NCBI GenBank assembly: GCA_037178625.1
Contig: CM074142.1
Span: 1,364,001 to 1,428,000, forward strand
Source of the DNA: Skeletonema tropicum
Taxonomy: Eukaryota; Bacillariophyta; Thalassiosirophyceae; Thalassiosirales; Thalassiosiraceae
Direction: 5' to 3'
Length of the DNA: 64,000 nucleotides
Shown: positions 2,601 through 49,071 of the stretch, in pieces
Layout of the letters: each line of letters opens with the position of its first letter
How positions within the stretch are numbered: position 1 is the stretch's first letter
Program-made: the position numbers and the translations under genes
Notes under the pieces: generated by a model
Database searches by the model: none
Seen by the model: only the letters and a program-made list of their open reading frames with translations
Told to the model about the DNA's origin: nothing

Positions 2601-3640
2601 TCCCCGAGAATGGACGCTGTCCTCAATCCTCAATGAACTCGAGAAATCGAAGACGTACAACAACCATATGGTTGAACTAATCCTGGCCAGGAGACTACTT
2701 AGTTCTTCTGGCTTGGAGTGCGATCTGAGAAACAGTTGTGGAGGCAATATGAAGTATCAATACTGACGACACAGCACACATGTTAGTCAGTCATAATTTC
2801 GCCCCTAGAGAGAGGGCTAATCAGACGTACTTTATAATTTCTGTTATTTTATCTATTTGTCATCCACCTAAGTACAAAAGTATCCACAATGCATAAGTAG
2901 TACTCCTACATAAAAGTAAGGAGCGAACGCTTGCGCGGGTATCTTTTACATAGCTGCCTCCTTCTTCGGTTTGAAAACTTTTCTTTTGTTTTGGTTTGTA
3001 GAAGAAGAAGTACTTAGCTGCTGACAACGAAAAAGCATGTACTATATACAATGCAGCTCTTCTTTTACCACTAGGTATTTATGATGCATTTGCATCATCG
3101 CTTCCGATACAAATGAGTTGCTGCACCAGCGCACTGGTGTCACAGAAATGTTGTGATCTATTAAGGTGTGGTAAGCACAGAGCAGCACCACGGCTGTAAT
3201 AAGTAGACGGTTCAATAGTGATTAACGCTGCTTGAAAAATACAATCATAAAGAAATAGAATCTCGTGCAAGCTTTGAGGCAGCTTGTTTTTGTTGACTTT
3301 CGTCATCATCAAAGGGAGGAGTTTCACAATCAACTTGCCAGATTCAAAATACTTCATTACTACGGTTAGCTTGACATAAGGTGTCTCTCATTACTCAAAA
3401 CAACAAAAAGCAAACAAAGAAATCATTGTCATCGGGCTTCATTTCCATCAAATATCGAAGAGGAAGTGCCGAAAGCGGCTGGAGAGGTGCATTAGAAGCA
3501 GCCGAAGTGGGCCTCTCCCTGAAGATAGAGTAGCATGACTTCATAAATGCAATGGTGAGTGAGGTGGAATTGGAATTGTACAAAGGTAAAATGCTTCATC
3601 GCGTTGAAAGTATGGTACCATCAAACTCCTGCTGGCATTG
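2601..3640. other. Intergenic stretch between FCP copies
   Basis: I see no convincing gene here. The part from about 3113 resembles 865-1290 and continues the pseudogene tail (ATGTTGTGATCTATT motif, then GAGGAAGTGC.GAAAGCGGCT). The remainder is AT-rich, without long open frames or clear repeats. Confidence 0.5.
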
Positions 3641-3910
3641 TTGCAAAGAATGATACCTAACACTACCAGGCTAGAGGTCTGTTATGACTTGAACTGTGTA
3701 AAAAGAAACATTGATAGCGAATATATTCAAATAATTCTATCATGTGTAGAAGAGAATTGGTTCTTTTATTATTATGGCACACATTATCTAGCTTTGAGTT
3801 CCTCCTCTTCCAAAGACTCGGCTCAAGCACAAAATACGTACGAGCGCGTTGTGTGTTCCTTCTACATGTACAACATGATGTTATTGTATACAATACATCA
3901 AACAAGCAAT

Positions 3911-4070
3911 TTATTGAAGGTGTCCAATGATGGGAAGATCGGGATCATATCCAAGGGGCTGGATCTCCTCGTGGACCATAAGTCCGAGGATTCCGAACAT
4001 GGCAGCACGGCCGTTGTTCAACTCAATGGCACGCTTCTGAAGCTTGGTCTCTTCATCAAAGTCATCCCAG

Positions 4071-4111
<41 letters not shown>

Positions 4112-4307
4112 ATTTCCAGTTCCGGGAACATCACGCATGAAGGCAATCTCCAACCAGCCAATGAAGGCGATGATCTGGCCTTGTCCCTCGAAGGGGATGG
4201 CATCAGGTCCGATCAAGGCGGCAACACCGTTGGGGAAGGAGTCGAAGGAGTTTCCAGCGTAGTCGATGTTTCCAGGAAGGTGGATTCCGGCACGGGTGAC
4301 GATCTGG

Positions 4308-4372
<65 letters not shown>

Positions 4373-4543
4373 TTCCTGGGAGCAGTCTCCAGAGAGCATG
4401 CCGAAGGGATCGAAGAATCCGAGAGGAGGCTGGGCACCGAGCTCATCCTCGAAGGCGTTCAAGGAGGTGGTGGCGGCCTTGTTTTGGGCAGGGGCGAAAG
4501 CGGCGGCAGAGCCGATAAGGGCAGCGATGATGGCAGACTTCAT
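3911..4543 (-). CDS. Fucoxanthin chlorophyll a/c light-harvesting protein, copy 2
   Basis: This encodes the same 210 residues as the gene at 1484-2116: the signal peptide plus SAAAFAP targeting motif, three LHC helices and both Glu/Arg pairs. It differs upstream: the stretch about 40-70 bases before the start codon has a 7-bp length difference, and identity to copy 1 ends about 215 bases upstream. The two genes therefore share a coding sequence, 3' region and proximal promoter, but not distal sequence. Both read toward lower coordinates. Tandem FCP pairs are common in diatoms; identical products suggest recent duplication or gene conversion and add dosage rather than new function. Confidence 0.95.
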
Positions 4544-4908: not shown

Positions 4909-5226
4909 AGCCGACATCCCCCGTCCTACGCCGCGGGAGCAGCGCCTAAGAATTCATGGATCTCTGCCGAAACCTGGGCTCTCGTCGATAAACGAGCAAG
5001 TTTGCGGCGTAATGGGAGTTTACAGGGGAAAGGTTATGCCCTCAGTCGCCAAATCAATGCGTCTTTCTGGAAAGACCGGAAGGCACGTGCGCGGAGCGTT
5101 GTTGGGCCCATCCCAACTACTCCGGTCCACCACCACCCGCAGGATGGGTGCCTGCTGCTGCGGAGGAATGAAGGTGCACGCGGTCTGCTGATACATCGAA
5201 ACATATGGATAAAGAATGGAAACTAA
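4909..5226 (+). pseudogene. LINE ORF2 fragment upstream of the reverse transcriptase core
   Basis: A continuous frame without an ATG reads ...SWISAETWALVDKRASLRR, then GYALSRQINASFWKDRKARA. This is the W.L.D.RA.LRR...R.I...DR..R pattern found in front of the RT domain of LINE ORF2 proteins. The frame runs on to a stop at 5226, but the last residues come from other sequence. The start coincides with the inner edge of the target duplication, so the element is 5' truncated. Bases 5091-5160 reappear inverted at 9816-9885. Confidence 0.65.
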
Positions 5227-8200
5227 TAGTTGGAGTAAATTTCCCTAAACCAGAAGTAAACACCAGCAAATTAATTTCTTCTTCTGATAATCCTTTCGAA
5301 GTATTAGCAGAGCCAGCCTCAATCCTACACAAGCATGCACGTGCAGCACCCATGCCACCCGAGCCACCCGATCCGCCCAACAAGCAAGTCCATTGGAAAG
5401 ACCAAATGCGATCAAAGAGGAAGCAACGCAAAGAAGCGGCCCGGAGACTCCGCCTAGCCGATAGAGAGTTGAATGAGGAACTGTCAATTCTTGCCAGCAG
5501 AAACAACATGCTACGTCATTTGCCAAGTGATGTGCAATCATATCGAGAGAAAAGTGCAGATAATAAAATCATCCTCAAAAGCATCCTCAAAGTATCCCGA
5601 CGAGGAAAAAGAGATAAATTGCCTCGTGTTCCACCCCCAACCCCCAAATCTACTGAAGCCGATGTTCTCGGCCCCCTGAAACAACTGCGGAACAAATTTA
5701 ATCGTCTAGCCGAGTATTCAGCTAATCTATCGCTGTTCAACATGAATAAGAGCTCACCTCCTAAAACAGCTATTGTCGATTCAGGAGCCACTAATCACTT
5801 CGGAACTGATGACGGTGGATTCGTGTCGACTGGTGTGCCTTCAACCAAAATTGTAGGAGCAGCTAATGGCAACTTCATGCGAGCTTCAACACAAGCGGTA
5901 CTCCCAATGTCTCAATTACGACCAGAAGCAAGAGAAGCTGACATCATCCCTCAACTGAAGAACTCCCTCGTTAGCATCAGCAAGCTTGCCGATAGTAGCT
6001 ATGTCACCATCTTTCAGCCCGGCAACAAAGGCGTTACTGTGTATGACGAAAAAGATGTACAGATCACCGTGACAGGCGAGGCTGTTCTACAGGGCTGGCG
6101 TGAAGGAAATTTATGGCGAGTCCCGCTTGAAGATGGATCTACTGTTCCAATAAATGAAGACAAGCTTTCGGAAGCAGCTCACAATTTGTTTGAGCTACCG
6201 TCTCTACGTGAGAGTATACGTTACCTGCATGCCTCGCTAGGATTTCCTGTAAAAAGTACGTGGTTGAAAGCAATTCGAGCTGGTAATTTCGCCGGTTGGC
6301 CGCTTGTTACAGTTGCAAATGTGCACAAATATTTCCCTGAATCAGAGGAGACGCAAATGGGCCATTTAATTCAACAACGGCAAGGCGTCCGCTCCACCAA
6401 AGCTCGCGAACCGCTCACGGATGTAGATACGTCTATGACCAAAGGGAAAAAGGAGAAAGATGTATACATCAAAGTTCTCGACATGAAGAATCAAATCTAC
6501 AGCGATCAAACAGGAGCATTCCCCATTCGATCCAAGGGAGGTCATCGTTATCTCATGGTCATGCTAGAGATTGATAGCAATGCCATTTTAGTTGAGCCAA
6601 TGAAGAGCAGGAAAGACGAAGAGATGCAACGAGCCTATCTAGTTCTCATCGGTCGCCTCAAACGAGCAGGAGTTCACATTAAGAAGCATGTCCTCGATAA
6701 TGAATGCTCACAAGCGATGAAGGATCTCATTGAGCAAACCTGTCGGTACGAGTTAGTTCCACCAGATTCCCATCGGCGTAACATTGCGGAAACAAGCATC
6801 AAGAATTTCAAACAGCACTTCATATCAGTTCTCAGTGGACTGCCACCATCTTTCCCAATGAACATGTGGCACAAGTTGTTACCACAAACTGAGCTAACGC
6901 TCAATTTATTGCGACAATCAAATGCCTGTCCCACCGTTTCCGCCCATCAAGCTCTATTTGGCGTTTTCGATTACAATAGACAGCCACTAGCTCCACTTGG
7001 TTGTGAAGTACTTGTGCATGAAGCGACTGCTAGACGTTCATCATGGGGGCAACATGCCAAGAAAGGCTGGTCGCTAGGAACATCTGCCGAGCACTACAGA
7101 AGCAATCTCATTTTCGTCAAGGATTCAGCAGCGGAACGAGTGTGCGAAACTGTATTCTTTAAGCATCATTACATCACGAAGCCAAAGGTCACGCACGCAG
7201 ATGTAGTCATCGCAGCAGCTCAAAATCTAGCAAAGGTCATTCAATGCAAGCCGAACTATGCAGGAGAAGGAAATCTTCGAGGACTCAAAGCTTTAAGTGA
7301 AATGTTTTCTTCCATAGCCGAAGGAAAGGCTCCAGCAGATTGGGAACGAGAATACGCACCTGAAAATAATCAACAAGAGCAGGAACATTCACCTCCAAGG
7401 GTGGAGATGGAAATGTCTACAGAAGAAGGAGCCAAGCTTCCATCTCCAAGGGTGGAGATGGAGAAGTCTACAGCAGAAAGAGCCAAGCTACCACCTCCTA
7501 GGACGCCAGAAAAAGAGCCAACAAGAACATCGTCGACCATCATTGCACCGTCAAAACCTATATCACCGTTGCAAAAGTTAATCTCCGATTTCAAGGCAGC
7601 AGCTCACTCTCCCACTGATAATATCTTCACACCAAAAAGGCTACGACGAGAAATGAGAGCTCCAGAAATATCCTCTTCAAACATTCTGCCAACCCGCACT
7701 CGTAGTGGTAGTAGGACATCCACTTCGACTGATACGTCTGAATACCTTGCCAATGCTCTCTTTGCATTAGACACCATGGAAGCAGAATATCTCAAACCAT
7801 CGGCACATAATGACCTAACCGACTTCGCATACCAACTGCTCGCCTCTGAATCAGCGTACAACGTTCTTGATCCAGATACAGGAAAATCTCTGAGTTACCG
7901 TCAACTTCGCCAACACCCCAAGTTAGGTCCAGCATGGGATATTTCTTCAGCAAATGAATTTGGAAGGCTGGCACAAGGAATTGGAGGACGTGTAAAGGGC
8001 ACCAACACCATCTTCTTCATCCCAAAGAGTAAAGTCCCAGTAGATCGACGCAAAGATGTTAGCTACGGAAAATTTGTATGCAAAGTACGGCCCGAGAAGG
8101 TAGATGAACCGAACAGAACTCGTCTGACAGTAGGAGGCAACCTTATCAACTATCCATTCGAAGTTGGTACACCAACAGCAGATCTTCTTCTTGCCAAAAT

Positions 8201-9593
8201 ACTTTTCAACAGTGTCATCTCCACCAAGAATGCCCGATTCATGACCATCGATATCAAGAACTTCTATTTAAACACACCGATGCAACGATACGAATACATC
8301 AAACTCAAACTCAGCGACATTCCAAACGAAGTAATCGAAGAATATAACCTCCGCAACATCGCTACTGATGACGACTTCGTTTACGTCGAAATTCGTGCAG
8401 GCATGTATGGCCTACCCCAAGCCGGCCTAATTGCGCAAGAACTTCTCGAAAAGCGTCTCAACAAAGAAGGGTACTACCAGGACAAATATGTCCCAGGCCT
8501 GTGGCACCATGAGTGGCGCCCAATCAAGTTCACTCTCGTAGTAGACGATTTTGGAGTCAAATACGTCGGAAAGGAACACGCTGATCATCTGCTTGGTGTA
8601 ATCCAAAAACACTACAAATGCTCCAAAGAATGGGACGGAAAACGATACATCGGCATAAAGCTTGATTGGGATTACGATCGACGCAAAGTACATTTATCTA
8701 TGCCTGGCTACGTCAAAACAGCAATTACAGAGTTAGGCCATGAACCACCAGAGCACAGGCAGGACCAGCCACATCGCCATGTCCCTCCTAATTACGGTGC
8801 CAAAACACAGTACGCCACACCAGACGACAATACGCCTCCCCTTGACAAAGCAGCAGCAAGTCGCATTCGCAAAATAACTGGAAAATTTCTCTACCTAGGA
8901 CGAGCCGTAGATGGTACACTCCTGACTCCACTAAGCGCAATCGCCTCAAATCAATCCAATCCAACCACCGACACGCTGGCTAAGGCTACCCAATTTCTCG
9001 ATTACGTCAGCTCCCAAGAAGAAGCCGTCCTAACTTACAACGCTAGCGAAATGATATTAGCCACGCACAGCGATGCTAGCTATTTGTGCGAACCCAATGC
9101 AAGAAGCAGGGCTGGAGGACATTTCTTCCTTTCAAACAACGATCCCTTTCCACCCAACAACGGAGCCATTTTGAACATCGCGCAAATCATCAAAAACGTC
9201 ATGACTTCCGCCGCCGAAGCAGAACTAGCTGCTCTCTACATCAATGCAAGAGAAGCTATCTACATTCGATTAATCCTTCAACAACTAGGACATCCACAAC
9301 CGGCCACACCCATCCAAACAGACAATTCCACTGCCGAAGGTGTCATCAACAGCAAAGTGCAACCAAAGCGCACTAAGGCAATGGACATGCGTTTCCACTG
9401 GCTACGAGATAGAGAAACTCTCAAACAATTCCGCATCTATTGGCGCCCAGGTCGAATGAACTATGCTGACTACTGGACCAAACATCATCCAGGCGCACAC
9501 CATCGAAACATCCGCCCAGAAATATTGTCTTCTCCCAGCGTTATCACAGAACTCAATGAACGCAAGAAAGAAGTCTCGGCAAGGGTGTGCTAG
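5205..9593 (+). CDS. Copia-type Pol polyprotein, copy 1
   Basis: The 1,462-residue open frame encodes the enzymes of a Ty1/copia retrotransposon in Copia order. They are an aspartic protease (DSGATNHF, about 192), a pre-integrase region (YLHASLGFP...GHL, about 340-400), an integrase with D (YSDQTGAF, about 432), D (LDNEC, about 497) and E (NIAETSIKNF, about 528), a reverse transcriptase (IDIKNFYL, about 1012; VVDDFG, about 1111) and an RNase H (HSDASY, EAELAAL, TDNSTAEG, about 1288-1400). VVDD replaces the usual YVDD. I see no Gag zinc knuckle (CCHC) and no 5' LTR in front, so the element is 5' incomplete. The frame has no internal stop. Diatom Copia lineages are called CoDi in the literature; I cannot assign a subgroup. 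Confidence 0.92.
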   Translation: MDKEWKLIVGVNFPKPEVNTSKLISSSDNPFEVLAEPASILHKHARAAPMPPEPPDPPNKQVHWKDQMRSKRKQRKEAARRLRLADRELNEELSILASRNNMLRHLPSDVQSYREKSADNKIILKSILKVSRRGKRDKLPRVPPPTPKSTEADVLGPLKQLRNKFNRLAEYSANLSLFNMNKSSPPKTAIVDSGATNHFGTDDGGFVSTGVPSTKIVGAANGNFMRASTQAVLPMSQLRPEAREADIIPQLKNSLVSISKLADSSYVTIFQPGNKGVTVYDEKDVQITVTGEAVLQGWREGNLWRVPLEDGSTVPINEDKLSEAAHNLFELPSLRESIRYLHASLGFPVKSTWLKAIRAGNFAGWPLVTVANVHKYFPESEETQMGHLIQQRQGVRSTKAREPLTDVDTSMTKGKKEKDVYIKVLDMKNQIYSDQTGAFPIRSKGGHRYLMVMLEIDSNAILVEPMKSRKDEEMQRAYLVLIGRLKRAGVHIKKHVLDNECSQAMKDLIEQTCRYELVPPDSHRRNIAETSIKNFKQHFISVLSGLPPSFPMNMWHKLLPQTELTLNLLRQSNACPTVSAHQALFGVFDYNRQPLAPLGCEVLVHEATARRSSWGQHAKKGWSLGTSAEHYRSNLIFVKDSAAERVCETVFFKHHYITKPKVTHADVVIAAAQNLAKVIQCKPNYAGEGNLRGLKALSEMFSSIAEGKAPADWEREYAPENNQQEQEHSPPRVEMEMSTEEGAKLPSPRVEMEKSTAERAKLPPPRTPEKEPTRTSSTIIAPSKPISPLQKLISDFKAAAHSPTDNIFTPKRLRREMRAPEISSSNILPTRTRSGSRTSTSTDTSEYLANALFALDTMEAEYLKPSAHNDLTDFAYQLLASESAYNVLDPDTGKSLSYRQLRQHPKLGPAWDISSANEFGRLAQGIGGRVKGTNTIFFIPKSKVPVDRRKDVSYGKFVCKVRPEKVDEPNRTRLTVGGNLINYPFEVGTPTADLLLAKILFNSVISTKNARFMTIDIKNFYLNTPMQRYEYIKLKLSDIPNEVIEEYNLRNIATDDDFVYVEIRAGMYGLPQAGLIAQELLEKRLNKEGYYQDKYVPGLWHHEWRPIKFTLVVDDFGVKYVGKEHADHLLGVIQKHYKCSKEWDGKRYIGIKLDWDYDRRKVHLSMPGYVKTAITELGHEPPEHRQDQPHRHVPPNYGAKTQYATPDDNTPPLDKAAASRIRKITGKFLYLGRAVDGTLLTPLSAIASNQSNPTTDTLAKATQFLDYVSSQEEAVLTYNASEMILATHSDASYLCEPNARSRAGGHFFLSNNDPFPPNNGAILNIAQIIKNVMTSAAEAELAALYINAREAIYIRLILQQLGHPQPATPIQTDNSTAEGVINSKVQPKRTKAMDMRFHWLRDRETLKQFRIYWRPGRMNYADYWTKHHPGAHHRNIRPEILSSPSVITELNERKKEVSARVC

Positions 9594-9814: not shown

Positions 9815-9899
9815 ACAGCAGCAGGCACCCATCCTGCGGGTGGTGGTGGACCGGAGTAGTTGGGATGGGCCCAACAACGCTCCGCAGAGATGTAACGAT
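9815..9899. repeat. Spacer between Copia units: inverted 70-bp copy of LINE sequence
   Basis: Bases 9816-9885 are the exact reverse complement of 5091-5160, which lies in the LINE fragment just upstream of the first Copia unit. A few unmatched bases (AGATGTAACGAT) follow before the second unit begins. An inverted scrap of left-flank DNA between the direct repeats points to template switching or end joining, not LTR-LTR recombination. Confidence 0.8.
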
Positions 9900-12800
9900 G
9901 CAAGTCCATTGGAAAGACCAAATGCGATCAAAGAGGAAGCAACGCAAAGAAGCGGCCCGGAGACTCCGCCTAGCCGATAGAGAGTTGAATGAGGAACTGT
10001 CAATTCTTGCCAGCAGAAACAACATGCTACGTCATTTGCCAAGTGATGTGCAATCATATCGAGAGAAAAGTGCAGATAATAAAATCATCCTCAAAAGCAT
10101 CCTCAAAGTATCCCGACGAGGAAAAAGAGATAAATTGCCTCGTGTTCCACCCCCAACCCCCAAATCTACTGAAGCCGATGTTCTCGGCCCCCTGAAACAA
10201 CTGCGGAACAAATTTAATCGTCTAGCCGAGTATTCAGCTAATCTATCGCTGTTCAACATGAATAAGAGCTCACCTCCTAAAACAGCTATTGTCGATTCAG
10301 GAGCCACTAATCACTTCGGAACTGATGACGGTGGATTCGTGTCGACTGGTGTGCCTTCAACCAAAATTGTAGGAGCAGCTAATGGCAACTTCATGCGAGC
10401 TTCAACACAAGCGGTACTCCCAATGTCTCAATTACGACCAGAAGCAAGAGAAGCTGACATCATCCCTCAACTGAAGAACTCCCTCGTTAGCATCAGCAAG
10501 CTTGCCGATAGTAGCTATGTCACCATCTTTCAGCCCGGCAACAAAGGCGTTACTGTGTATGACGAAAAAGATGTACAGATCACCGTGACAGGCGAGGCTG
10601 TTCTACAGGGCTGGCGTGAAGGAAATTTATGGCGAGTCCCGCTTGAAGATGGATCTACTGTTCCAATAAATGAAGACAAGCTTTCGGAAGCAGCTCACAA
10701 TTTGTTTGAGCTACCGTCTCTACGTGAGAGTATACGTTACCTGCATGCCTCGCTAGGATTTCCTGTAAAAAGTACGTGGTTGAAAGCAATTCGAGCTGGT
10801 AATTTCGCCGGTTGGCCGCTTGTTACAGTTGCAAATGTGCACAAATATTTCCCTGAATCAGAGGAGACGCAAATGGGCCATTTAATTCAACAACGGCAAG
10901 GCGTCCGCTCCACCAAAGCTCGCGAACCGCTCACGGATGTAGATACGTCTATGACCAAAGGGAAAAAGGAGAAAGATGTATACATCAAAGTTCTCGACAT
11001 GAAGAATCAAATCTACAGCGATCAAACAGGAGCATTCCCCATTCGATCCAAGGGAGGTCATCGTTATCTCATGGTCATGCTAGAGATTGATAGCAATGCC
11101 ATTTTAGTTGAGCCAATGAAGAGCAGGAAAGACGAAGAGATGCAACGAGCCTATCTAGTTCTCATCGGTCGCCTCAAACGAGCAGGAGTTCACATTAAGA
11201 AGCATGTCCTCGATAATGAATGCTCACAAGCGATGAAGGATCTCATTGAGCAAACCTGTCGGTACGAGTTAGTTCCACCAGATTCCCATCGGCGTAACAT
11301 TGCGGAAACAAGCATCAAGAATTTCAAACAGCACTTCATATCAGTTCTCAGTGGACTGCCACCATCTTTCCCAATGAACATGTGGCACAAGTTGTTACCA
11401 CAAACTGAGCTAACGCTCAATTTATTGCGACAATCAAATGCCTGTCCCACCGTTTCCGCCCATCAAGCTCTATTTGGCGTTTTCGATTACAATAGACAGC
11501 CACTAGCTCCACTTGGTTGTGAAGTACTTGTGCATGAAGCGACTGCTAGACGTTCATCATGGGGGCAACATGCCAAGAAAGGCTGGTCGCTAGGAACATC
11601 TGCCGAGCACTACAGAAGCAATCTCATTTTCGTCAAGGATTCAGCAGCGGAACGAGTGTGCGAAACTGTATTCTTTAAGCATCATTACATCACGAAGCCA
11701 AAGGTCACGCACGCAGATGTAGTCATCGCAGCAGCTCAAAATCTAGCAAAGGTCATTCAATGCAAGCCGAACTATGCAGGAGAAGGAAATCTTCGAGGAC
11801 TCAAAGCTTTAAGTGAAATGTTTTCTTCCATAGCCGAAGGAAAGGCTCCAGCAGATTGGGAACGAGAATACGCACCTGAAAATAATCAACAAGAGCAGGA
11901 ACATTCACCTCCAAGGGTGGAGATGGAAATGTCTACAGAAGAAGGAGCCAAGCTTCCATCTCCAAGGGTGGAGATGGAGAAGTCTACAGCAGAAAGAGCC
12001 AAGCTACCACCTCCTAGGACGCCAGAAAAAGAGCCAACAAGAACATCGTCGACCATCATTGCACCGTCAAAACCTATATCACCGTTGCAAAAGTTAATCT
12101 CCGATTTCAAGGCAGCAGCTCACTCTCCCACTGATAATATCTTCACACCAAAAAGGCTACGACGAGAAATGAGAGCTCCAGAAATATCCTCTTCAAACAT
12201 TCTGCCAACCCGCACTCGTAGTGGTAGTAGGACATCCACTTCGACTGATACGTCTGAATACCTTGCCAATGCTCTCTTTGCATTAGACACCATGGAAGCA
12301 GAATATCTCAAACCATCGGCACATAATGACCTAACCGACTTCGCATACCAACTGCTCGCCTCTGAATCAGCGTACAACGTTCTTGATCCAGATACAGGAA
12401 AATCTCTGAGTTACCGTCAACTTCGCCAACACCCCAAGTTAGGTCCAGCATGGGATATTTCTTCAGCAAATGAATTTGGAAGGCTGGCACAAGGAATTGG
12501 AGGACGTGTAAAGGGCACCAACACCATCTTCTTCATCCCAAAGAGTAAAGTCCCAGTAGATCGACGCAAAGATGTTAGCTACGGAAAATTTGTATGCAAA
12601 GTACGGCCCGAGAAGGTAGATGAACCGAACAGAACTCGTCTGACAGTAGGAGGCAACCTTATCAACTATCCATTCGAAGTTGGTACACCAACAGCAGATC
12701 TTCTTCTTGCCAAAATACTTTTCAACAGTGTCATCTCCACCAAGAATGCCCGATTCATGACCATCGATATCAAGAACTTCTATTTAAACACACCGATGCA

Positions 12801-14109
12801 ACGATACGAATACATCAAACTCAAACTCAGCGACATTCCAAACGAAGTAATCGAAGAATATAACCTCCGCAACATCGCTACTGATGACGACTTCGTTTAC
12901 GTCGAAATTCGTGCAGGCATGTATGGCCTACCCCAAGCCGGCCTAATTGCGCAAGAACTTCTCGAAAAGCGTCTCAACAAAGAAGGGTACTACCAGGACA
13001 AATATGTCCCAGGCCTGTGGCACCATGAGTGGCGCCCAATCAAGTTCACTCTCGTAGTAGACGATTTTGGAGTCAAATACGTCGGAAAGGAACACGCTGA
13101 TCATCTGCTTGGTGTAATCCAAAAACACTACAAATGCTCCAAAGAATGGGACGGAAAACGATACATCGGCATAAAGCTTGATTGGGATTACGATCGACGC
13201 AAAGTACATTTATCTATGCCTGGCTACGTCAAAACAGCAATTACAGAGTTAGGCCATGAACCACCAGAGCACAGGCAGGACCAGCCACATCGCCATGTCC
13301 CTCCTAATTACGGTGCCAAAACACAGTACGCCACACCAGACGACAATACGCCTCCCCTTGACAAAGCAGCAGCAAGTCGCATTCGCAAAATAACTGGAAA
13401 ATTTCTCTACCTAGGACGAGCCGTAGATGGTACACTCCTGACTCCACTAAGCGCAATCGCCTCAAATCAATCCAATCCAACCACCGACACGCTGGCTAAG
13501 GCTACCCAATTTCTCGATTACGTCAGCTCCCAAGAAGAAGCCGTCCTAACTTACAACGCTAGCGAAATGATATTAGCCACGCACAGCGATGCTAGCTATT
13601 TGTGCGAACCCAATGCAAGAAGCAGGGCTGGAGGACATTTCTTCCTTTCAAACAACGATCCCTTTCCACCCAACAACGGAGCCATTTTGAACATCGCGCA
13701 AATCATCAAAAACGTCATGACTTCCGCCGCCGAAGCAGAACTAGCTGCTCTCTACATCAATGCAAGAGAAGCTATCTACATTCGATTAATCCTTCAACAA
13801 CTAGGACATCCACAACCGGCCACACCCATCCAAACAGACAATTCCACTGCCGAAGGTGTCATCAACAGCAAAGTGCAACCAAAGCGCACTAAGGCAATGG
13901 ACATGCGTTTCCACTGGCTACGAGATAGAGAAACTCTCAAACAATTCCGCATCTATTGGCGCCCAGGTCGAATGAACTATGCTGACTACTGGACCAAACA
14001 TCATCCAGGCGCACACCATCGAAACATCCGCCCAGAAATATTGTCTTCTCCCAGCGTTATCACAGAACTCAATGAACGCAAGAAAGAAGTCTCGGCAAGG
14101 GTGTGCTAG
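9865..14109 (+). CDS. Copia-type Pol polyprotein, copy 2 (altered N-terminus)
   Basis: The 1,414-residue frame is identical to the copy at 5205-9593 from QVHWKDQMRSKRK onward. It therefore has the same protease, integrase, reverse transcriptase (VVDDFG) and RNase H. Its first 12 or so residues (MGPTTLRRDVTM) are encoded by the inverted spacer and replace about 60 residues of copy 1. Whether this start is used is doubtful; it is simply the first in-frame ATG. No Gag and no 5' LTR are visible. The 220-bp tail ends at 14330, where LINE sequence resumes. Confidence 0.88.
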   Translation: MGPTTLRRDVTMQVHWKDQMRSKRKQRKEAARRLRLADRELNEELSILASRNNMLRHLPSDVQSYREKSADNKIILKSILKVSRRGKRDKLPRVPPPTPKSTEADVLGPLKQLRNKFNRLAEYSANLSLFNMNKSSPPKTAIVDSGATNHFGTDDGGFVSTGVPSTKIVGAANGNFMRASTQAVLPMSQLRPEAREADIIPQLKNSLVSISKLADSSYVTIFQPGNKGVTVYDEKDVQITVTGEAVLQGWREGNLWRVPLEDGSTVPINEDKLSEAAHNLFELPSLRESIRYLHASLGFPVKSTWLKAIRAGNFAGWPLVTVANVHKYFPESEETQMGHLIQQRQGVRSTKAREPLTDVDTSMTKGKKEKDVYIKVLDMKNQIYSDQTGAFPIRSKGGHRYLMVMLEIDSNAILVEPMKSRKDEEMQRAYLVLIGRLKRAGVHIKKHVLDNECSQAMKDLIEQTCRYELVPPDSHRRNIAETSIKNFKQHFISVLSGLPPSFPMNMWHKLLPQTELTLNLLRQSNACPTVSAHQALFGVFDYNRQPLAPLGCEVLVHEATARRSSWGQHAKKGWSLGTSAEHYRSNLIFVKDSAAERVCETVFFKHHYITKPKVTHADVVIAAAQNLAKVIQCKPNYAGEGNLRGLKALSEMFSSIAEGKAPADWEREYAPENNQQEQEHSPPRVEMEMSTEEGAKLPSPRVEMEKSTAERAKLPPPRTPEKEPTRTSSTIIAPSKPISPLQKLISDFKAAAHSPTDNIFTPKRLRREMRAPEISSSNILPTRTRSGSRTSTSTDTSEYLANALFALDTMEAEYLKPSAHNDLTDFAYQLLASESAYNVLDPDTGKSLSYRQLRQHPKLGPAWDISSANEFGRLAQGIGGRVKGTNTIFFIPKSKVPVDRRKDVSYGKFVCKVRPEKVDEPNRTRLTVGGNLINYPFEVGTPTADLLLAKILFNSVISTKNARFMTIDIKNFYLNTPMQRYEYIKLKLSDIPNEVIEEYNLRNIATDDDFVYVEIRAGMYGLPQAGLIAQELLEKRLNKEGYYQDKYVPGLWHHEWRPIKFTLVVDDFGVKYVGKEHADHLLGVIQKHYKCSKEWDGKRYIGIKLDWDYDRRKVHLSMPGYVKTAITELGHEPPEHRQDQPHRHVPPNYGAKTQYATPDDNTPPLDKAAASRIRKITGKFLYLGRAVDGTLLTPLSAIASNQSNPTTDTLAKATQFLDYVSSQEEAVLTYNASEMILATHSDASYLCEPNARSRAGGHFFLSNNDPFPPNNGAILNIAQIIKNVMTSAAEAELAALYINAREAIYIRLILQQLGHPQPATPIQTDNSTAEGVINSKVQPKRTKAMDMRFHWLRDRETLKQFRIYWRPGRMNYADYWTKHHPGAHHRNIRPEILSSPSVITELNERKKEVSARVC

Positions 14110-15175
14110 TCTCATCGTTTACCACTCGGGAATACCAGAGTTTGAACTCTGACACTTCTCTGTATCCGAGATTCTTTCTCGTTTCTCGATCGACTCCGAG
14201 CGGTGTCAGAATTCCGATCCAACAAGAATTCTACATCGCCGGAGCCTCACGTTTTTTCACCATGATACAAAGTAGCCATAAAATCCATTCAGTAATTGAT
14301 TCATAGCATTTACTTTGTTCACTGTTTAGTCTGAACTCGCATTTGGAGACGCAACACGGTGTGTTTCGATCAAGGGTGTTGAATCGGGACTTTCTATTGA
14401 ATGATGGAGAGCCGGAGACATATACTGCGTGTGCCAGCTTTAGCGGGAGTTTTTTCTGCCCTGTGCCAGCGTGCCAGGAAGCCACTGATTGTTTTAACAC
14501 TGCGTGGGCTATTCGTCGGCACTTCCGTGATCGTCATCCGCGGGACTATGTGGACGTCGAGGGATCTGGAGTCTTCCCGAAGTGTCATCTCTGCAATATG
14601 CAGACTGACCCACGGTGGGCTGCCAGACACGAGAGGTCAAAGTTCTGTCGAACGGGGAGGGAGAGGATAGTGCAAACTAATGCGAATATTGCAAACCAGC
14701 GGGCTCTAGAAGTTGGCTTTACGGCGTATGGAAAGGACCTCGAACGGGTGGAGGTGTTTAAGTATCTTGGTCAGCTCATGTCGTTGGACGATACTGACAC
14801 GCAGGCGATTCGGAGTAATCTGACCAAGGCCCAAAGGCGTGGAAAATGATATCTCGTCTCCTGCGTAGCGAGAACATGAAACCCAGGGTTTGCGGTATGT
14901 TTTTTAAGGCAGTCGTGCAGGCAGTGCTTTTGTATGGGAGTGAGACTTGGGTATTGACGGATTCGGCGTTGCGGTGTCTGGAAGGCTTCTATTATCGAGC
15001 TGTTTCCCGCATGGTAGGGGGGAGCAAGCCCTGTGTTTTTTGGGGAGTCACGAGTGGTGCGCGCCAAGAATTTTTTTGACCATGGCCAAAATTGGCCATC
15101 GCCTGATTGGAGTAAGAAATAGGACCCTTTTGCAGCTTTTACTCTGTTATTACTTGTTTTCATACTTTGATACTG

Positions 15176-15214
15176 TTTGGCCGCATAGACGGGGGTATGG
15201 TCTATGCGGCCAAA
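15176..15214 (+). other. Perfect 15-bp hairpin inside the TIR element, copy 1
   Basis: The arms TTTGGCCGCATAGAC (15176-15190) and GTCTATGCGGCCAAA (15200-15214) flank the 9-base loop GGGGGTATG. The element at 34539-36913 has the same hairpin with two changed pairs, both still complementary. It lies about 160 bp upstream of the likely start codon at 15375. Confidence 0.85.
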
Positions 15215-15374
15215 AAGTTTGGTGATCTCAAGTGCTGACCCGGTGGAGATTTTGTTGCAAAACCAGCCAATCTTGTCGACAAAACTCCAATCTTCAAAAG
15301 ACTCAACGCATCGGAGAGCTCGCCGATGCTCCGAAAGCAACAAGCAGAGAACTCAGTGGTGCACAAAAGCGACA

Positions 15375-16154
15375 ATGGAAGAGAGTAATGATGATACCGC
15401 AATGGCGGCCGGTGCCGAGGCAGCGCCAAAGCCAAAAAAGAGAAAGAGGAAGAAGAGTACTTTTAGCCGCAATCAAAGGGGTGGTGAGCAGAAGAAATCC
15501 AACGCACCACATGCCCCGAACGTCCCTCGAAACCCATCACAGCCAACACAGGCGCCGACGTCAGATAATAATACGGCAGATCCAAGAATATTCAATCTGA
15601 AGAGGGCAACGCAAAGGCGAGATAAGCAAATAGAAGTATTGTCTGCTCATAACCAACAACTGAAAAGTGCAGTCGAGACTGCTGCAAGAGAAATGCGATC
15701 GGTTGAACGTGAGGCTGCAATGAAAGTGAACGCCATTGAGAAGGGGGCAGAGAAAATGCAAGAGAGGGCTGAAAAGAAGATGAAGCGTGCAGCAGAGGCG
15801 ACAACTACAGCTCATACCAAAATGGCCACCGCAACAAAAGCAGCTACTGACGCAAAAGAGACGAAGAAGGAGTATGAGAAGTCAAACAAACAGTTAGCGG
15901 AAAAAGATGAGTTGATACGCGAACTGAAGGAGAAATTGAGGGCATCACAGAAGGCGGCCAAGGAAGCAGAGAAGGCTGCCAAGAAAGCAGAGGAGAGGGA
16001 AGTAAAGGAAATAGCAGCGCGGAAAGAAGTGGAGAATTCACTAGAGGATATGGAAGCAAAGTTGGCGAGGATGGAGGCAATGAAGAGGGCAAAAGGACAA
16101 TTCCGGAAAAGCCTCCTGTCAAAACACTTGAGCGGAAGGCTTTGCCAGTGCTAG
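15375..16154 (+). CDS. Coiled-coil protein of the TIR element, copy 1 (rearranged)
   Basis: The likely start is ATG at 15375 (MEESNDDTAMAAGAE), which matches the start region of the copy at 34893. An Ala/Lys/Arg-rich basic stretch (KPKKRKRKKSTFSRNQRGG) follows; from about residue 75 a long charged coiled coil runs through repeated KAA, EKAAKKAEE and KEVEN segments. After AKDETKKE the sequence no longer matches the other copy: about 230 bp of different coiled-coil sequence replaces about 670 bp. The last 20 residues (QFRKSLLSKHLSGRLCQC) are the other copy's IPEKPPVKRLERKALP region read out of frame. The protein is therefore truncated relative to its sibling. Function is unknown. Confidence 0.55.
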   Translation: MEESNDDTAMAAGAEAAPKPKKRKRKKSTFSRNQRGGEQKKSNAPHAPNVPRNPSQPTQAPTSDNNTADPRIFNLKRATQRRDKQIEVLSAHNQQLKSAVETAAREMRSVEREAAMKVNAIEKGAEKMQERAEKKMKRAAEATTTAHTKMATATKAATDAKETKKEYEKSNKQLAEKDELIRELKEKLRASQKAAKEAEKAAKKAEEREVKEIAARKEVENSLEDMEAKLARMEAMKRAKGQFRKSLLSKHLSGRLCQC

Positions 16155-16564
16155 GAACATTGTCTGCCGATGTTGCTACACTTAACGTCATGTCAGAGGA
16201 GAAAGAGCAAGAAATTAGGGACAAGGCAACCAAAATGCGTGACGAGCGGGAGTTGGAAGGAGTTGGAGACAGATACGGTGAAATGCAACCTAGGCTCCAC
16301 CCTGCATTGGATGAAAGCTTGATTGATCGTCGCATTGAAATCTGTTTGACGCGTGGTGAGCAGCTAATGTGGCATAGTGGGAAGGTGGTTGGGATAAAGA
16401 GAAGAAAGAAAACTTTCGAAATGCTATACGATGAAGATGTTGTAGATGATGACGAACCTCGTTTGCAAGAAGTTAAGCTGCTGCCAAGCTTTTGGATCAA
16501 GGCTAAGCAAGGCGGATGGAGATTAGCTAAAGAGGAGGTGGAGATGGAGCGTGCGCAACCTTGA
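16142..16564 (+). pseudogene. Out-of-frame C-terminal part of the TIR-element protein
   Basis: This 140-residue frame (PVLGTLSADVATLNVMSEEKEQ... to ...KEEVEMERAQP) is nearly identical to the C-terminus of the protein at 34893-36509, but is in a different frame from the upstream gene here. It includes a compact domain (LTRGEQLMWHSGKVVGIKRR...FEMLYDEDV) that may be a small beta-barrel of Tudor/chromo type; that reading rests on pattern alone. Separation from its N-terminal half shows this copy cannot make the full protein. Confidence 0.6.
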
Positions 16565-17464
16565 GTACCAATGTTAAAGTAGGGGGGGAGTAATGTATTC
16601 GTAGTAGAAAGAAGTGTGTAACTCAAGTTCTACTAAGTGATAATTAATCCAGTAGTTCGATACACGTAGCTTGCAGAGCCTAAATAGAGATTAAAAGAGG
16701 AGGTGGAGATGGAGTGCGCAACCTTGAGTACCAATTCCTACATAGAATAAATTGCGGGAGCGAAATTTGGCGCCATCCATCACTTTCAATTCATGACTCA
16801 ATGGCCAAAAATGTGCTCCTATGTAGTGCCAAAATGGGTATGAAGAAATGGAACAAATAGCACGAAACTTTGGATATATCTACATTGTATATATATGAAT
16901 TCATGTATGCAATAGTATTTGGTATAAAACCTATTTGAAAATTCATCATTCTGGGCTTGCTCCCCCCTACGCATGGCACGCAAGAATCGACCTAAGAAGA
17001 ACGAACGGACTGGAGAGTGGAGGTATCCGGATAAGAAGGAGTTATTGAGGAGGTTGGGCTGTATACTTTGACGGAGTACATCGAAAAACGGAGGAAGACT
17101 ATTGGGGCATACATCAGGGACCGCTCGATTCTGGATCTTTGTAGGGATGGTGAGAGACAACGTGGTACCAGCAAACACCGATGGTGGTGGGAGCAGCCGT
17201 TTGAGGCGGACCCGGAGAGGGAAGAGGATGCCTCTTCTATTGTATCTGGAGCCGCGTCTGAGGTGGAATCGCTGCTGTCTGTCGAGGATAGTGTATAAAG
17301 GGGTTGGCTAGCTGGATCTTCAAGTGTGGGGTTTAGTATAGTCTTTTATTTCTATAACAGCAAGCGCCTAGGGGTTGCACGAGCACTGCCCGCGGACTTG
17401 TTAGTCCATTCGTTGGGAAAGACGTGTAGGCCAAGTTACACACACACACATAGAATGATACGAG

Positions 17465-34253: not shown

Positions 34254-34532
34254 TTATTCGTCATTGGTCGGATACTCAATTGCACTCATGTCTTCAAAAG
34301 CCTTACCAAACTTGTTGTACCTCTCCTTCTCTTCATCGGTGAAGTTGTCGTAGTCTGTGTCATCAACGTCACCTGCAATGATTTGTAGCTCATCAAAGTC
34401 AAGATATTCACTGATGTCGTAATCATCAACATTTGGAAGATCGTACTTTAGCTTCTTCATCTTGTCTATATCGACTCCTTCAATCACCTCGCACACCTTG
34501 ACACCGACCACCTTCCGACTTGGAGCTTCCAT
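34254..34532 (-). pseudogene. C-terminal part of an acidic protein, severed by the TIR element (U1)
   Basis: The frame MEAPSRKVVGVKVCEVIEG... to ...FEDMSAIEYPTNDE is very acidic in its second half (DVDDTDYDNFTDEEKERY). In U2 the same frame continues upstream without a break (DDENYTPNLATMEAPS), so the internal ATG here is not the natural start. In U1 the TIR element landed between those codons. Further upstream lies a foldback element and, beyond it, an open frame at 37715-38319 on the same strand. The two parts probably form one gene, although a simple join is one base out of frame. Confidence 0.5.
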
Positions 34533-34709
34533 TGTCGCTAGGGGGGAGCAAGCCCTGTGTTTTTTGGGGAGTCACGAGTGGTGCGCGCCAAGAATTTTCT
34601 CAAAATTTTTTGACCATGGCCAAAATTGGCCATCGCCTGATCGGAGTAAGAAATAGGACCCTTTGGCAGCTTATTCTCTGTTATTATTTGTTTTCATACT
34701 TTGAAACTG

Positions 34710-34748
34710 TTGGGGCGCATAGACGGGGGTATGGTCTATGCGCCCCAA
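34710..34748 (+). other. Perfect 15-bp hairpin inside the TIR element, copy 2
   Basis: The arms TTGGGGCGCATAGAC and GTCTATGCGCCCCAA enclose loop GGGGGTATG. Compared with 15176-15214, two pairs differ (T-A to G-C and C-G to G-C), and both remain paired. The loop sequence is unchanged. Confidence 0.87.
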
Positions 34749-34892
34749 GAGTTTGGTGGGCTCAAGTGCTCACCCTGTGGAGCTTTTGTTGCCAAACCAG
34801 CCAATTTTGTCGACAAAACTCCGATCTACAAAAGACTCAACGCATCGGAGAGCTCTCCGATGCAGCAAAGAGCTGACGATGCAGCAAAAGCA

Positions 34893-36509
34893 ATGATGGA
34901 AGAGAGTAATGATGATACCACGATGGCGGCCGGTGCCGAGGCAGTGCCAAAGCAAAAGAGGAGAAGGACGAAGAGCGGTATTAGCCGCAAGCCAAAGGGT
35001 GGCAAGCAGAAGAAATCCAACGCACCGCATGCCCCGAACGTCCCTCGGAACCCATCACAGCCAACACAGGCGCCGACGTCAGATAATAATACGGCAGATC
35101 CAAGAATATTCAATCTGAAGAGGGCAACGCAAAGGCGAGATAAGCAAATAGAAGTATTGTCTGCTGATAACCAACAACTGAAAAGGAAAGTCGAGACTAC
35201 CGCAAGAGAAATTCAATCGGTTGAACGTGAGACTGCAATGAAAGTGAACGCCATTGAGAAGGGGGCAGAGAAAGTGCACGAGAGGGCTGAAAAGAAGATG
35301 AAGCGTGCAGCAGAGGTGACGACTACAGCTAATGTCAAAATGGCCGCCGCAGCAAAAGCAGCTACTGACGCAAAAGAGATGAAGAAGGAGGCTTCAAAAG
35401 AGAAGACTATCGCAACAAAGGAGAGGAAGCAAATCAATAACAATAAATTTGGGGCACTCACCCAACAGATGGAGGCCTTCGTGACACTTGTAGGTATGAA
35501 TGCTTCTGCGGTTGGCCAGGCGCGCATCAATGGTGATTTCTATCGAGTCGAGACAGAGCTTCAAAAGAAGAAGAAAGAAGATGCAGATGAAACTCAACCT
35601 CAAAACGGTACTGTGATTGACCTTCCTCCTCAATTACTCACGACAGTGATTGAATTTGCACTATCTAAAACAAAGCAGGTGCGAAAGAAGGAGCAAGTAG
35701 CTCTCCGCAATCAGCAAGAAAAGAGGGCGCAAAGATTAGAGCTGATGAAAAAGGCAGGATACGAGAAGGCCACCCAGCTTCTCATTGATTGTCTGTACTA
35801 CCATGATATGTACTATTCTGAAAGGCGGCTGAGAAGTGCGGCAGCTGTAGATGAGATGCTTGGCCAACTAAAAAGTAAGACGGCAAAGTTAGATGAGATC
35901 AAAGAACAGATCCGTATCAGAGTACTTGGACTTGGCTGGGAAGACTTACATCATCCATGGAGTAAAGATGGTAAGGAGTATTCGGTAGATATCCTTGCCG
36001 ACTGGTTAAAGAACAAAATTATACCGGAAGAGGACAAAAGGCCAATTCCAGAAAAGCCTCCTGTCAAAAGACTTGAGCGGAAGGCTTTGCCAGTGCTTGG
36101 AACATTGTCTGCCGATGTTGCTAAACTTAACGTCATGTCAGAAGAAAAAGAGCAAGAAATTAGGGACAAGGCAACCGAAATGCGTGACGAGCGGGAGTTG
36201 GACGGAGTTGGAGACAGATACGGTGAAATGCAACCTAGACTCCACCCTGCATTGGATGAAAGCTTGATTGATCGTCGCATTGAAATCTGTTTGACGCGTG
36301 GTGAGCAGCTAATGTGGCATAGTGGGAAGGTGGTTGGGATAAAGAGAAGAAAGAAAACTTTCGAAATGCTATACGATGAAGATGTTGTAGATGATGACGA
36401 ACCTCGTTTGCAAGAAGTTAAGCTGCTGCCAAGCTTTTGGATCAAGGCTAAGCAAGGCGGATGGAGATTAGCTAAAGAGGAGGTGGAGATGGAGCGTGCG
36501 CAACCTTGA
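34893..36509 (+). CDS. Coiled-coil cargo protein of the TIR element, intact copy
   Basis: From ATG 34893 (MMEESNDDTTMAAGAEAVPK) the protein has 538 residues. The frame stays open upstream through the hairpin (possible ATG 34731). In order, it has a basic nuclear-signal-like stretch (KQKRRRTKSGISRKPKGGKQ), a Pro-rich spacer and a coiled coil (about 75-190). A helical region follows (LLIDCLYYHDMYYSERRL, about 290-310), then the motif RVLGLGWEDLHHPWSKDG and the segment EYSVDILADWLKNKIIPEE. The C-terminal domain is RGEQLMWHSGKVVGIKRRKK...LYDEDVVDDDEPRLQEVKLLP. I recall similar GLGWEDLHH-type proteins as repeat-associated in other eukaryotes but cannot verify this. No DDE/D triad, Tyr or Ser recombinase, or Rep/helicase motif is apparent. 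Its role in mobility is unknown. Confidence 0.7.
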   Translation: MMEESNDDTTMAAGAEAVPKQKRRRTKSGISRKPKGGKQKKSNAPHAPNVPRNPSQPTQAPTSDNNTADPRIFNLKRATQRRDKQIEVLSADNQQLKRKVETTAREIQSVERETAMKVNAIEKGAEKVHERAEKKMKRAAEVTTTANVKMAAAAKAATDAKEMKKEASKEKTIATKERKQINNNKFGALTQQMEAFVTLVGMNASAVGQARINGDFYRVETELQKKKKEDADETQPQNGTVIDLPPQLLTTVIEFALSKTKQVRKKEQVALRNQQEKRAQRLELMKKAGYEKATQLLIDCLYYHDMYYSERRLRSAAAVDEMLGQLKSKTAKLDEIKEQIRIRVLGLGWEDLHHPWSKDGKEYSVDILADWLKNKIIPEEDKRPIPEKPPVKRLERKALPVLGTLSADVAKLNVMSEEKEQEIRDKATEMRDERELDGVGDRYGEMQPRLHPALDESLIDRRIEICLTRGEQLMWHSGKVVGIKRRKKTFEMLYDEDVVDDDEPRLQEVKLLPSFWIKAKQGGWRLAKEEVEMERAQP

Positions 36510-36946
36510 GTACCAATGTTAAAGTAGGGGGGGAGTAATGTATTCGTAGTAGAAAGAAGTGTGTAACTCAAGTTCTACTAAGTGATAATTAATCCAGTAG
36601 TTCGATACACGTAGCTTGCAGAGCCTAAATGAGATTAAAAGAGGAGGTGGAGATGGAGTGCGCAACCTTGAGTACCAATTCCTACATAGAATAAATTGCG
36701 GGAGCGAAATTTGGCGCCATCCATCACTTTCAATTCATGACTCAATGGCCAAAAATGTGCTCCTATGTAGTGCCAAAATGGGTATGAAGAAATGGAACAA
36801 ATAGCACGAAACTTTGGATATATCTACATTGGATATATATGAATTCATGTATGCAATAGTATTTGGTATAAAACCTATTTGAAAATTCATCATTCTGGGC
36901 TTGCTCCCCCCTATTGTCGCCAGATTGGGCGTGTAATTTTCATCAT

Positions 36947-47992: not shown

Positions 47993-48303
47993 TTATTCGT
48001 CATTGGTCGGATACTCAATTGCACTCATGTCTTCAAAAGCCTTACCAAACTTGTTGTACCTCTCCTTCTCTTCATCGGTGAAGTTGTCGTAGTCTGTGTC
48101 ATCAACGTCACCTGCAATGATTTGTAGCTCATCAAAGTCAAGATATTCACTGATGTCGTAATCATCAACATTTGGAAGATCGTACTTTAGCTTCTTCATC
48201 TTGTCTATATCGACTCCTTCAATCACCTCGCACACCTTGACACCGACCACCTTCCGACTTGGAGCTTCCATTGTCGCCAGATTGGGCGTGTAATTTTCAT
48301 CAT
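47993..48303 (-). pseudogene. C-terminal part of the foldback-split gene, U2 (empty-site allele of the TIR element)
   Basis: The frame reads DDENYTPNLATMEAPSRK... to ...EYPTNDE without the TIR element. It stays open into the foldback, where an ATG at 48340 would give MKNIVSSLSNHTDDENY, a start supplied by the foldback arm. The single TTGTCGC at 48271-48277 is the unoccupied target of the U1 insertion. Confidence 0.55.
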
Positions 48304-49071
48304 CTGTATGATTTGAAAGTGATGATACAATATTTTTCAACTTAGATTAGGACGTTAATTACAATCTGTATGATTTGAAAGTGATGATACAATATTTTTC
48401 AACTTAGATTAGGACGTTAATTACTTGAACGAGTAGAGTAATGAACTCGTTTCGGTTAGACCTTCATCGGCAAGTGTCAACGTGAGACAGCCCCAGGAGC
48501 GGGCTGTTCTAATGAATCTTTTGTATAGTGGTGAACGGAGAAAAATGAAATGAACGGAGAAGTGAACGTCTTTTTGTATGATTTGAAAGTGATGATACAA
48601 TATTTTTCAACTTAGATTAGGACGTTAATTACTTGAAAGTTTATTATTGCCTATCATGGAGCCCCAACGATACGATCAGCTGTGACGAAAGCAAAACTGA
48701 TACAAGAACCCGGCAAAGAGGCCAGTAAGTATTTTGATGGGGAGCCCGATCCTGACTGATCGAGCTCCCCTCCTTTTACTCTCCCGAGGAGCTGCCTTCC
48801 GGCAGCTCAGCTCGGGAGAGCAAAAGCTTCTCCTGTCTGAAAAGACATTGAACCGCGTCTGAAAAAGACGTTCACTTCTCCGTTCATTTCATTTTTCTCC
48901 GTTCACCACTATACAAAAGATTCATTAGAACAGCCCGCTCCTGGGGCTGTCTCACGTTGACACTTGCCGATGAAGGTCTAACCGAAACGAGTTCATTACT
49001 CTACTCGTTCAAGTAATTAACGTCCTAATCTAAGTTGAAAAATATTGTATCATCACTTTCAAATCATACAG
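48304..49071. mobile_element. Foldback element, U2 copy
   Basis: Same 768-bp structure as 36947-37714: long inverted arms, triplicated end motif and two internal GC-rich hairpins. It was present before the segmental duplication. Confidence 0.8.

Follow-up and report, generated by a model that had tools for sequence, protein, structure and literature searches.

Internally deleted copies of a DNA transposon family with 7-bp target site duplications, and a full-length copy with a transposase-like gene, in the diatom Skeletonema tropicum

Two elements in a 64,000-nucleotide stretch of the Skeletonema tropicum genome (the window), here called W1 and W2, are very probably internally deleted, non-autonomous members of a cut-and-paste DNA transposon family with very recent activity, whose transposase would be of the type that the full-length copy L027 encodes. 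The family displays terminal inverted repeats (TIRs), target site duplications (TSDs) of 7 bp, empty sites, near-identity among many copies, and mostly unique internal deletions with an excess of microhomology; furthermore, one full-length copy has open frames, and there is protein-level selection between two lineages.

The first-pass annotation of the window had described W1 and W2 as elements with 17-bp TIRs and 7-bp TSDs, and these structures and their coordinates proved exact (Table 1). The empty site that it had proposed for W2 was likewise recovered: when the flanks of W2 were joined (200 bp on the left, including one copy of TTGTCGC, and 200 bp on the right), the 400 bp matched 48078-48477 of the window at 100% identity with no gaps. 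This part of the window (30866-55878) is a tandem duplication of approximately 11.36 kb with units that are 99.8-99.9% identical, and W2 is present in one unit only. For W1, joined flanks of 300 bp matched 40 scored places among 69 candidates, and 28 of the 40 matches were 95-98% identical over nearly the whole 300 bp, across the junction; W1 has many empty sites because it inserted in a repeated sequence. The translated letters around W1 resemble what we take to be the tail of a non-LTR reverse transcriptase, and a Pfam search of these surroundings gave no confirmation of such an enzyme. Elsewhere in the window, two very long open reading frames (ORFs) of 1,462 and 1,414 aa are found on the plus strand (5205-9593 and 9865-14109), with no Pfam match at E <=0.001, and a fucoxanthin-chlorophyll protein gene is found on the minus strand (1484-2116; best PDB match 8j7z, 370.8 bits). 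Genes for fucoxanthin-chlorophyll proteins stand in arrays with identical scores, and the genome has 128 matches to PF00504.

Table 1. Coordinates of the two elements and their parts in the window.
Feature	Position	Strand	Remarks
Element W2	34539..36913	+	2375 bp; L027 positions 1-911 + 2991-4457, 3 bases shared at the join
TSD TTGTCGC, W2 left copy	34532..34538		
TSD TTGTCGC, W2 right copy	36914..36920		
W2 left TIR TAGGGGGGAGCAAGCCC	34539..34555	+	
W2 right TIR	36897..36913	-	
W2 internal deletion junction	35447..35449		3-bp microhomology ATT; 2,082 bp missing
538-aa ORF of W2	34893..36509	+	In-frame fusion of putative transposase exon 1 and 3' part of exon 3
10-bp subterminal motif ATGGCCAAAA, W2 left	34616..34625	+	Starts at position 78 from left end; candidate transposase-binding site
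10-bp motif ATGGCCAAAA, W2 right	36745..36754	+	Starts at position 160 counted from right end
Hairpin in W2	34704..34754	+	15-bp main stem 34710-34724/34734-34748, 9-base loop, 5 outer pairs
Empty site of W2	48271..48277		Single TTGTCGC, in tandem paralogous unit
Element W1	15015..16969	+	1955 bp; deletion derivative of a related subfamily
TSD CGCATGG, W1 left copy	15008..15014		
TSD CGCATGG, W1 right copy	16970..16976		
10-bp motif, W1 left	15082..15091	+	Starts at position 68 from left end
10-bp motif, W1 right	16801..16810	+	Starts at position 160 counted from right end

The 78.4-Mb assembly (125 contigs) was searched for the 17-bp TIR with up to two mismatches, and 64 + 66 matches were obtained, compared to 0 + 1 for a reversed control pattern; a looser form of the TIR gave 76 + 74 matches, compared to 0 + 1 for the control. 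Copy counts for the family are lower bounds. Forty loci were fetched from the TIR matches listed, so that copies with decayed ends are under-represented, and 36 of these loci had both ends, which together with W1 and W2 gave 38 pairs; at the other four (L039, L041, L044 and L046) the second end was not recognised, and these were excluded from the TSD counts. A perfect 7-bp TSD flanked 36 of the 38 pairs. Ten further pairs (nine taken from short end slices, the tenth a short complete element) comprised eight with a TSD of exactly 7 bp, one with a TSD of 8 bp, and one without a direct TSD. The 7-bp length, which the first-pass annotation had staked on a tabulation over many copies, was therefore borne out in 44 of 48 pairs; the TSD was 8 bp long in one pair (L078/L079), and no direct TSD was seen in three, namely L012, L043 (an 8-base match lies one base off the left end) and L075/L076 (a 7-base match lies 6 bases off the left end). 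Chance TIRs or mis-paired ends are ruled out by the 130 TIR matches against one in the control together with the 44 TSDs of exactly 7 bp.

All 36 TSDs of the first set differ from one another, and they share a weak, symmetric target motif, N-Y-N-N-N-R-N, with C or T at base 2 in 33 and A or G at base 6 in 32 of them; a palindrome across the whole 31-bp target site was not significant (p 0.35). TIR variants were also found, with TAGGGGGG followed by AGCAAGCC, TGCACGCC, AGCGAGCC, GGCAAACC and others, and the TSD length was unchanged in those of the related subfamilies that were examined. A second non-autonomous family, with the TIRs AGCGAGCC/GGCAAACC, comprises seven pairs of 1,987 bp (L083 at C4:989719-991705, and six on C5, C6 (two), C10, C11 and C12) and one of 544 bp (L077), and 7-bp TSDs flank seven of these eight pairs. 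At C8:3204090-3218018, TIR-like ends stand 13.9 kb apart and no 7-bp duplication is seen in the flanks that were read; this is probably not one element.

A longer family member with an extra gene, which the first-pass annotation had suggested looking for, was found in L027 (C16:133894-138350; TSD CTGTCGG). No other paired copy that was fetched is as long as L027 (4,457 bp), which carries a transposase-like gene in three long overlapping open frames. It is also the sole copy found that spans the whole exon 2 protein; searches of the genome with exon 2 of L027 and with the protein of a second lineage, L049, otherwise detected partial copies, together with the L049 lineage, which was seen on C23 and C7. 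When a single deletion of 2,082 bp is allowed for, W2 matches L027 along its entire length without a mismatch, and W1 is 89.5% identical to L027 in its left part and 98.5% in its right part. The earlier proposal of a non-autonomous family driven from elsewhere thus held for W1 and W2, which are internal-deletion derivatives of the 4,457-bp type, itself located on the same contig, and are non-autonomous; as for the driver, we infer that it is L027. Autonomy of W2 is ruled out because the part that bears the candidate catalytic motifs has been deleted.

Among 28 two-piece derivatives, 27 distinct junctions were counted, and in 16 of the derivatives each of the two pieces is at least 99.6% identical to L027. 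The one junction that recurs is that of L021 and L037, and the TSDs of these two copies differ, indicating that the deleted form moved after it arose; sequence matches suggest further copies of this form on C102 and C103. Another structure is common to L011, L038 and L042. Twenty of the 28 junctions were tested exactly; a single deletion, accompanied by few other changes, accounts for 13 of them, and the other seven did not fit owing to other insertions and deletions. Microhomology at the 13 single-deletion junctions averaged 1.6 bp, compared to 0.70 bp in simulated random junctions (p 0.003); these values come from exact junction counts, as BLAST overlaps at junctions overstate microhomology. 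Furthermore, L029 contains a re-copied internal segment of 224 bp. By analogy with P elements, in which internal deletions are reported to arise through interrupted, template-switching gap repair (PMC4168063), the deletions in this family resemble the pattern that such repair of excision gaps would leave.

Seven copies (L011, L038, L040, L042, L043, L045 and L047) have one end of the W2 type, the other end TGCACGCCC, and a long internal stretch in common. The exon 2 matches listed for these copies cover 26 residues only, and a 265-codon open frame lies within the shared stretch in six of the seven. These copies look like recombinant elements.

Two introns are predicted in L027, both in phase 0 and with GT-AG borders (1740-1825 and 3065-3158), and the predicted spliced product is 1,226 aa long when read from MVYAPQ. 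A stop lies upstream of MMEES in both of the other copies that were tested (L009 and L010), and exon 1 of L010 contains a further one; because of these stops in the first part of the frame, translation more likely starts near MMEES and gives a protein of approximately 1,170 aa, with some uncertainty as to the start codon. Intron 1 of L020 and L023 shows substitutions and length differences with its borders kept. The motifs DETKR, QDTCN and HCHHHLRN are encoded in exon 2 and NDVAE in exon 3, and the candidate catalytic residues, in the numbering of the 1,226-aa product, are D415, D514, the CxxH at 551-554 and E871; the assignment of the D, D and E is putative and follows from the motifs.

The L049 lineage shares the TAGGGGGG end and the 10-bp subterminal motif with the L027 lineage, and its protein is 70% identical to that of L027 over exon 2 and 54% over exon 3. 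QDTCN, HCHHHLRN and NDVAE are identical in the two, with CxxH following the second D by 37 residues in L027 and by 35 in L049; L049 is without its 5' part, and the comparison does not reach the first D. The right end of L049 is TAGGGGGGTGCGC, and its left end was not found in the stretch fetched, so that this lineage is without a TSD. Between L027 and L049, pN and pS were 0.19 and 0.80 over exon 2 (316 codons), and 0.30 and 0.76 over exon 3 (443 codons). Silent sites are near saturation with far fewer replacement changes, indicating protein-level selection between the two lineages. At short range, dN/dS of L027 against L009 and L010 was approximately 0.74-0.77 in exon 1 and approximately 0.46 in exon 2 of L009, with little sign of selection; these ratios were taken per exon for L009, L010 and L049, as whole-copy values are partly spoilt by misalignment at deletion junctions.

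The 538-residue ORF of W2 is present as first described, within a 602-aa ORF, and the earlier remark that no recombinase motif can be seen in it is explained by the deletion: the stretch missing from W2 starts at approximately codon 185 of exon 1, with MMEES as the origin of the count, and extends to the residue that follows NDVAE, and the ORF is without the D, D, CxxH and E motifs. A single-sequence structure prediction for the 538-aa protein consisted mostly of a long helix (mean pLDDT 55.9, pTM 0.22), and exon 1 would form a long helix in this low-confidence model. An independent role for the fusion protein, such as that of a repressor, is improbable. Truncated P proteins act as repressors, and the W2 deletion keeps the frame from exon 1 to exon 3, with 619 codons open; however, one deletion in three keeps the frame by chance, and many derivatives encode other products.

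The 10-bp motif ATGGCCAAAA, or its complement, occurs in 18 of 20 distinct end sequences, where it starts at position 78 from the left end (small insertions or deletions shift this to 68 or 82 in some copies) and at 158-160 from the right end; most of the ends scored share recent ancestry. The right ends of L009 and L045 are without the motif, and it is present in the right end of L049 and in ends with other TIR variants. In W2, the left motif forms part of the near-palindrome TTTTGACCATGGCCAAAA. The motif is absent from the 59,670 bp of the window outside the elements, which means little, since approximately 0.1 occurrences would be expected by chance; it is the constant position, rather than rarity, that constitutes the evidence. 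In P elements, internal transposase sites of 10 bp are reported to be spaced unequally at the two ends (PMC7776569), and because of this likeness ATGGCCAAAA is taken as a candidate transposase-binding site.

The hairpin in W2 has a folding energy of -37.6 kcal/mol (z -7.6). Six of eight distinct versions were aligned, with L016 (a change at an unpaired base) and L035 (two changes, one turning a pair into G-U and one breaking another pair) excluded. Both-sided changes were seen at 3 of 20 pairs in the six versions, which was reached by 19 of 500 shuffles, and 94.2% of the cells were paired, compared to 88.2% in shuffles (94.2% was reached by none of 500) and 25.8-46.5% when the structure was slid. 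With six related rows, these compensatory changes are suggestive of a conserved hairpin. It lies upstream of the likely start codon, and it may function in the mRNA or serve as a site in the DNA.

The L027 protein and its exons gave no match above cut-off in Pfam, where matches below cut-off had E 0.044 or worse, or in NCBIfam, where SMC_prok_B matched the coiled-coil-like exon 1 at E 9.4e-5 (20.3 bits; cut-off 567) and matches elsewhere had E 0.038 or worse. The longer copy has no match above cut-off to a known transposase superfamily in these two collections. In PHROGs there were weak matches only (best E 0.041, and one at E 0.085 over the CxxH region), and against PDB sequences, searched with exons 2 and 3, the best E was 0.14; none of the four collections gave profile or PDB sequence support for an RNase H fold in the L027 protein. 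PF18758 (KDZ; Zisupton and kin) had no match in this genome, and none in control genomes either. No homologue was confirmed in viral contigs (exon 2 protein, exon 3 alignment and two motif patterns), in bacterial and archaeal genomes (exon 2 alignment), or in phages (exon 2 protein), and the titles and abstract openings in the literature surveyed contain no description of such a family.

The family has TIRs, a consistent TSD length and, in its full-length copy, a transposase-like gene, the features of the TIR order of class II elements, with catalysis by the protein as a probable property. The order D, D, C/DxxH, E is reported as common to hAT, P, MuDR, Kolobok and Dada (PMC3706591), and judging from these motifs we read the family as a DDE cut-and-paste transposon of the hAT/P/MuDR group. 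Because no profile matches while the motif order is that of the hAT/P group and the distance between the second D and CxxH is close to that of P, the family is described as working like a cut-and-paste element of the P or hAT type and is filed under no superfamily. The first-pass annotation had regarded the rarity of 7 bp as a hint of novelty; this did not stand, and a 7-bp TSD alone is no argument for novelty. TSDs of 7 bp are reported in Galileo (PMC4168063), and the P range is given as 7-8 bp (PMC4168063, PMC7776569).

It is unlikely that the family is a strongly diverged branch of the P superfamily (P/1360/Galileo/THAP9) with its THAP domain replaced or beyond recognition, despite several points of resemblance. 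These are the 7-bp TSDs known in Galileo (PMC4168063); a full-length copy accompanied by many with internal deletions, a gene of several ORFs that are spliced together (predicted in L027), and 10-bp subterminal sites at unequal distances from the ends, all of which are reported for P (PMC7776569); and a [C/D](2)H that follows the second D by 36 residues in P (D303 to D339; PMC8230255) and by 37 in L027, with a long stretch before the E. In addition, when L027 was compared by hhalign with a P-like protein from the same genome, the best path aligned GQLNCDETKR with GQLVVDEMKL, with the first-D motifs in register; however, the match probability was 0.7% (E 0.08), and the alignments of L027 with the P-like and MULE proteins of this genome were not significant. 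Furthermore, the TIR is 17 bp long and starts with TAGGGGGG, compared to 31 bp in P, the second D and the E are 357 residues apart, compared to 228 in P, and the N-terminus would be a long helix according to the low-confidence model. At E up to 10, hmmscan of the spliced protein and of its separate exons listed neither a THAP nor a P RNase H model, although PF21787 (P RNase H) matches two other loci in the genome and thus works here. These loci (C8:2801814-2802212 and C13:578051-578446; L053-L056) lie in ORFs of approximately 800 aa and score 37.6 and 37.1 bits summed, against a cut-off of 24.6, indicating that P-like transposases also occur in this diatom.

It is doubtful that the family is instead a diverged branch of hAT, MuDR or Dada. 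It resembles hAT in its C/DxxH motif, its long insertion domain and its deletion derivatives, which in hAT are exemplified by Ac/Ds, and the E-x-x-F after the candidate E presumably resembles hAT as well; with MuDR/MULE elements it has in common the CxxH motif and several TIR families. However, no hAT domain was detected by Pfam, no hAT or MULE (PF10551) model was among the hmmscan matches of the L027 protein at E up to 10, and L027 is not among the 46 genome places listed for PF10551; the TSD is 7 bp, shorter than the usual 9 bp of MuDR/MULE. The TSD of hAT is approximately 8 bp, with hAT families of 7 bp implied by a Repbase paper (PMC4455052), and D, D, C/DxxH, E is common to all three groups (PMC3706591). 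Dada is similar in its 6-7-bp TSD, C/DxxH, introns (predicted here), large transposase and internally deleted derivatives; however, it is described as having no TIRs and as targeting small RNA genes (snRNA or tRNA genes; PMC3706591), compared to the TIRs and 36 different targets seen here.

That the family founds a new superfamily of DDE transposons is possible, and is held tentatively. The protein has no match above cut-off in Pfam or NCBIfam and none that is convincing in PHROGs or PDB sequences, and the family has a consistent 7-bp TSD and a TIR and target motif of its own. However, only two diverged lineages were seen, in one genome, the collections compared were Pfam, NCBIfam, PHROGs and PDB sequences, and diverged protist members of known superfamilies can escape Pfam. 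Such a new eukaryotic superfamily, tentatively, would comprise two lineages with 7-bp NYNNNRN targets, TAGGGGGG termini and conserved 10-bp subterminal sites, and would have converged with P/hAT or split from them early.

For the family as we read it, a DDE cut-and-paste transposon of the hAT/P/MuDR group, a transposase of the L027 kind (approximately 1,170-1,226 aa, from three predicted exons) would bind the 10-bp subterminal sites ATGGCCAAAA and the TIRs. The element would be excised by a DDE active site of the RNase H type, in which a CxxH motif is present and the E is preceded by a long insertion. Its ends would be joined to the target with a stagger of 7 bp, at sites where base 2 is Y and base 6 is R, and the internal deletions would arise when the donor gap is repaired incompletely. 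In this scheme, catalysis, the roles of the D, D and E, DNA binding and splicing are all predicted from sequence, and L027, with its open frames, may still be active.

Altogether, the family looks like a complete two-component system in a diatom, with one full-length element and at least 28 deletion derivatives. Such a system would allow the activity of the transposase, its choice of targets and the repair of gaps to be tested directly in organisms that have few genetic tools of their own, and the combination of P-like features with a transposase that is unrecognised by profiles bears on the relations among hAT, P, MuDR and Dada.
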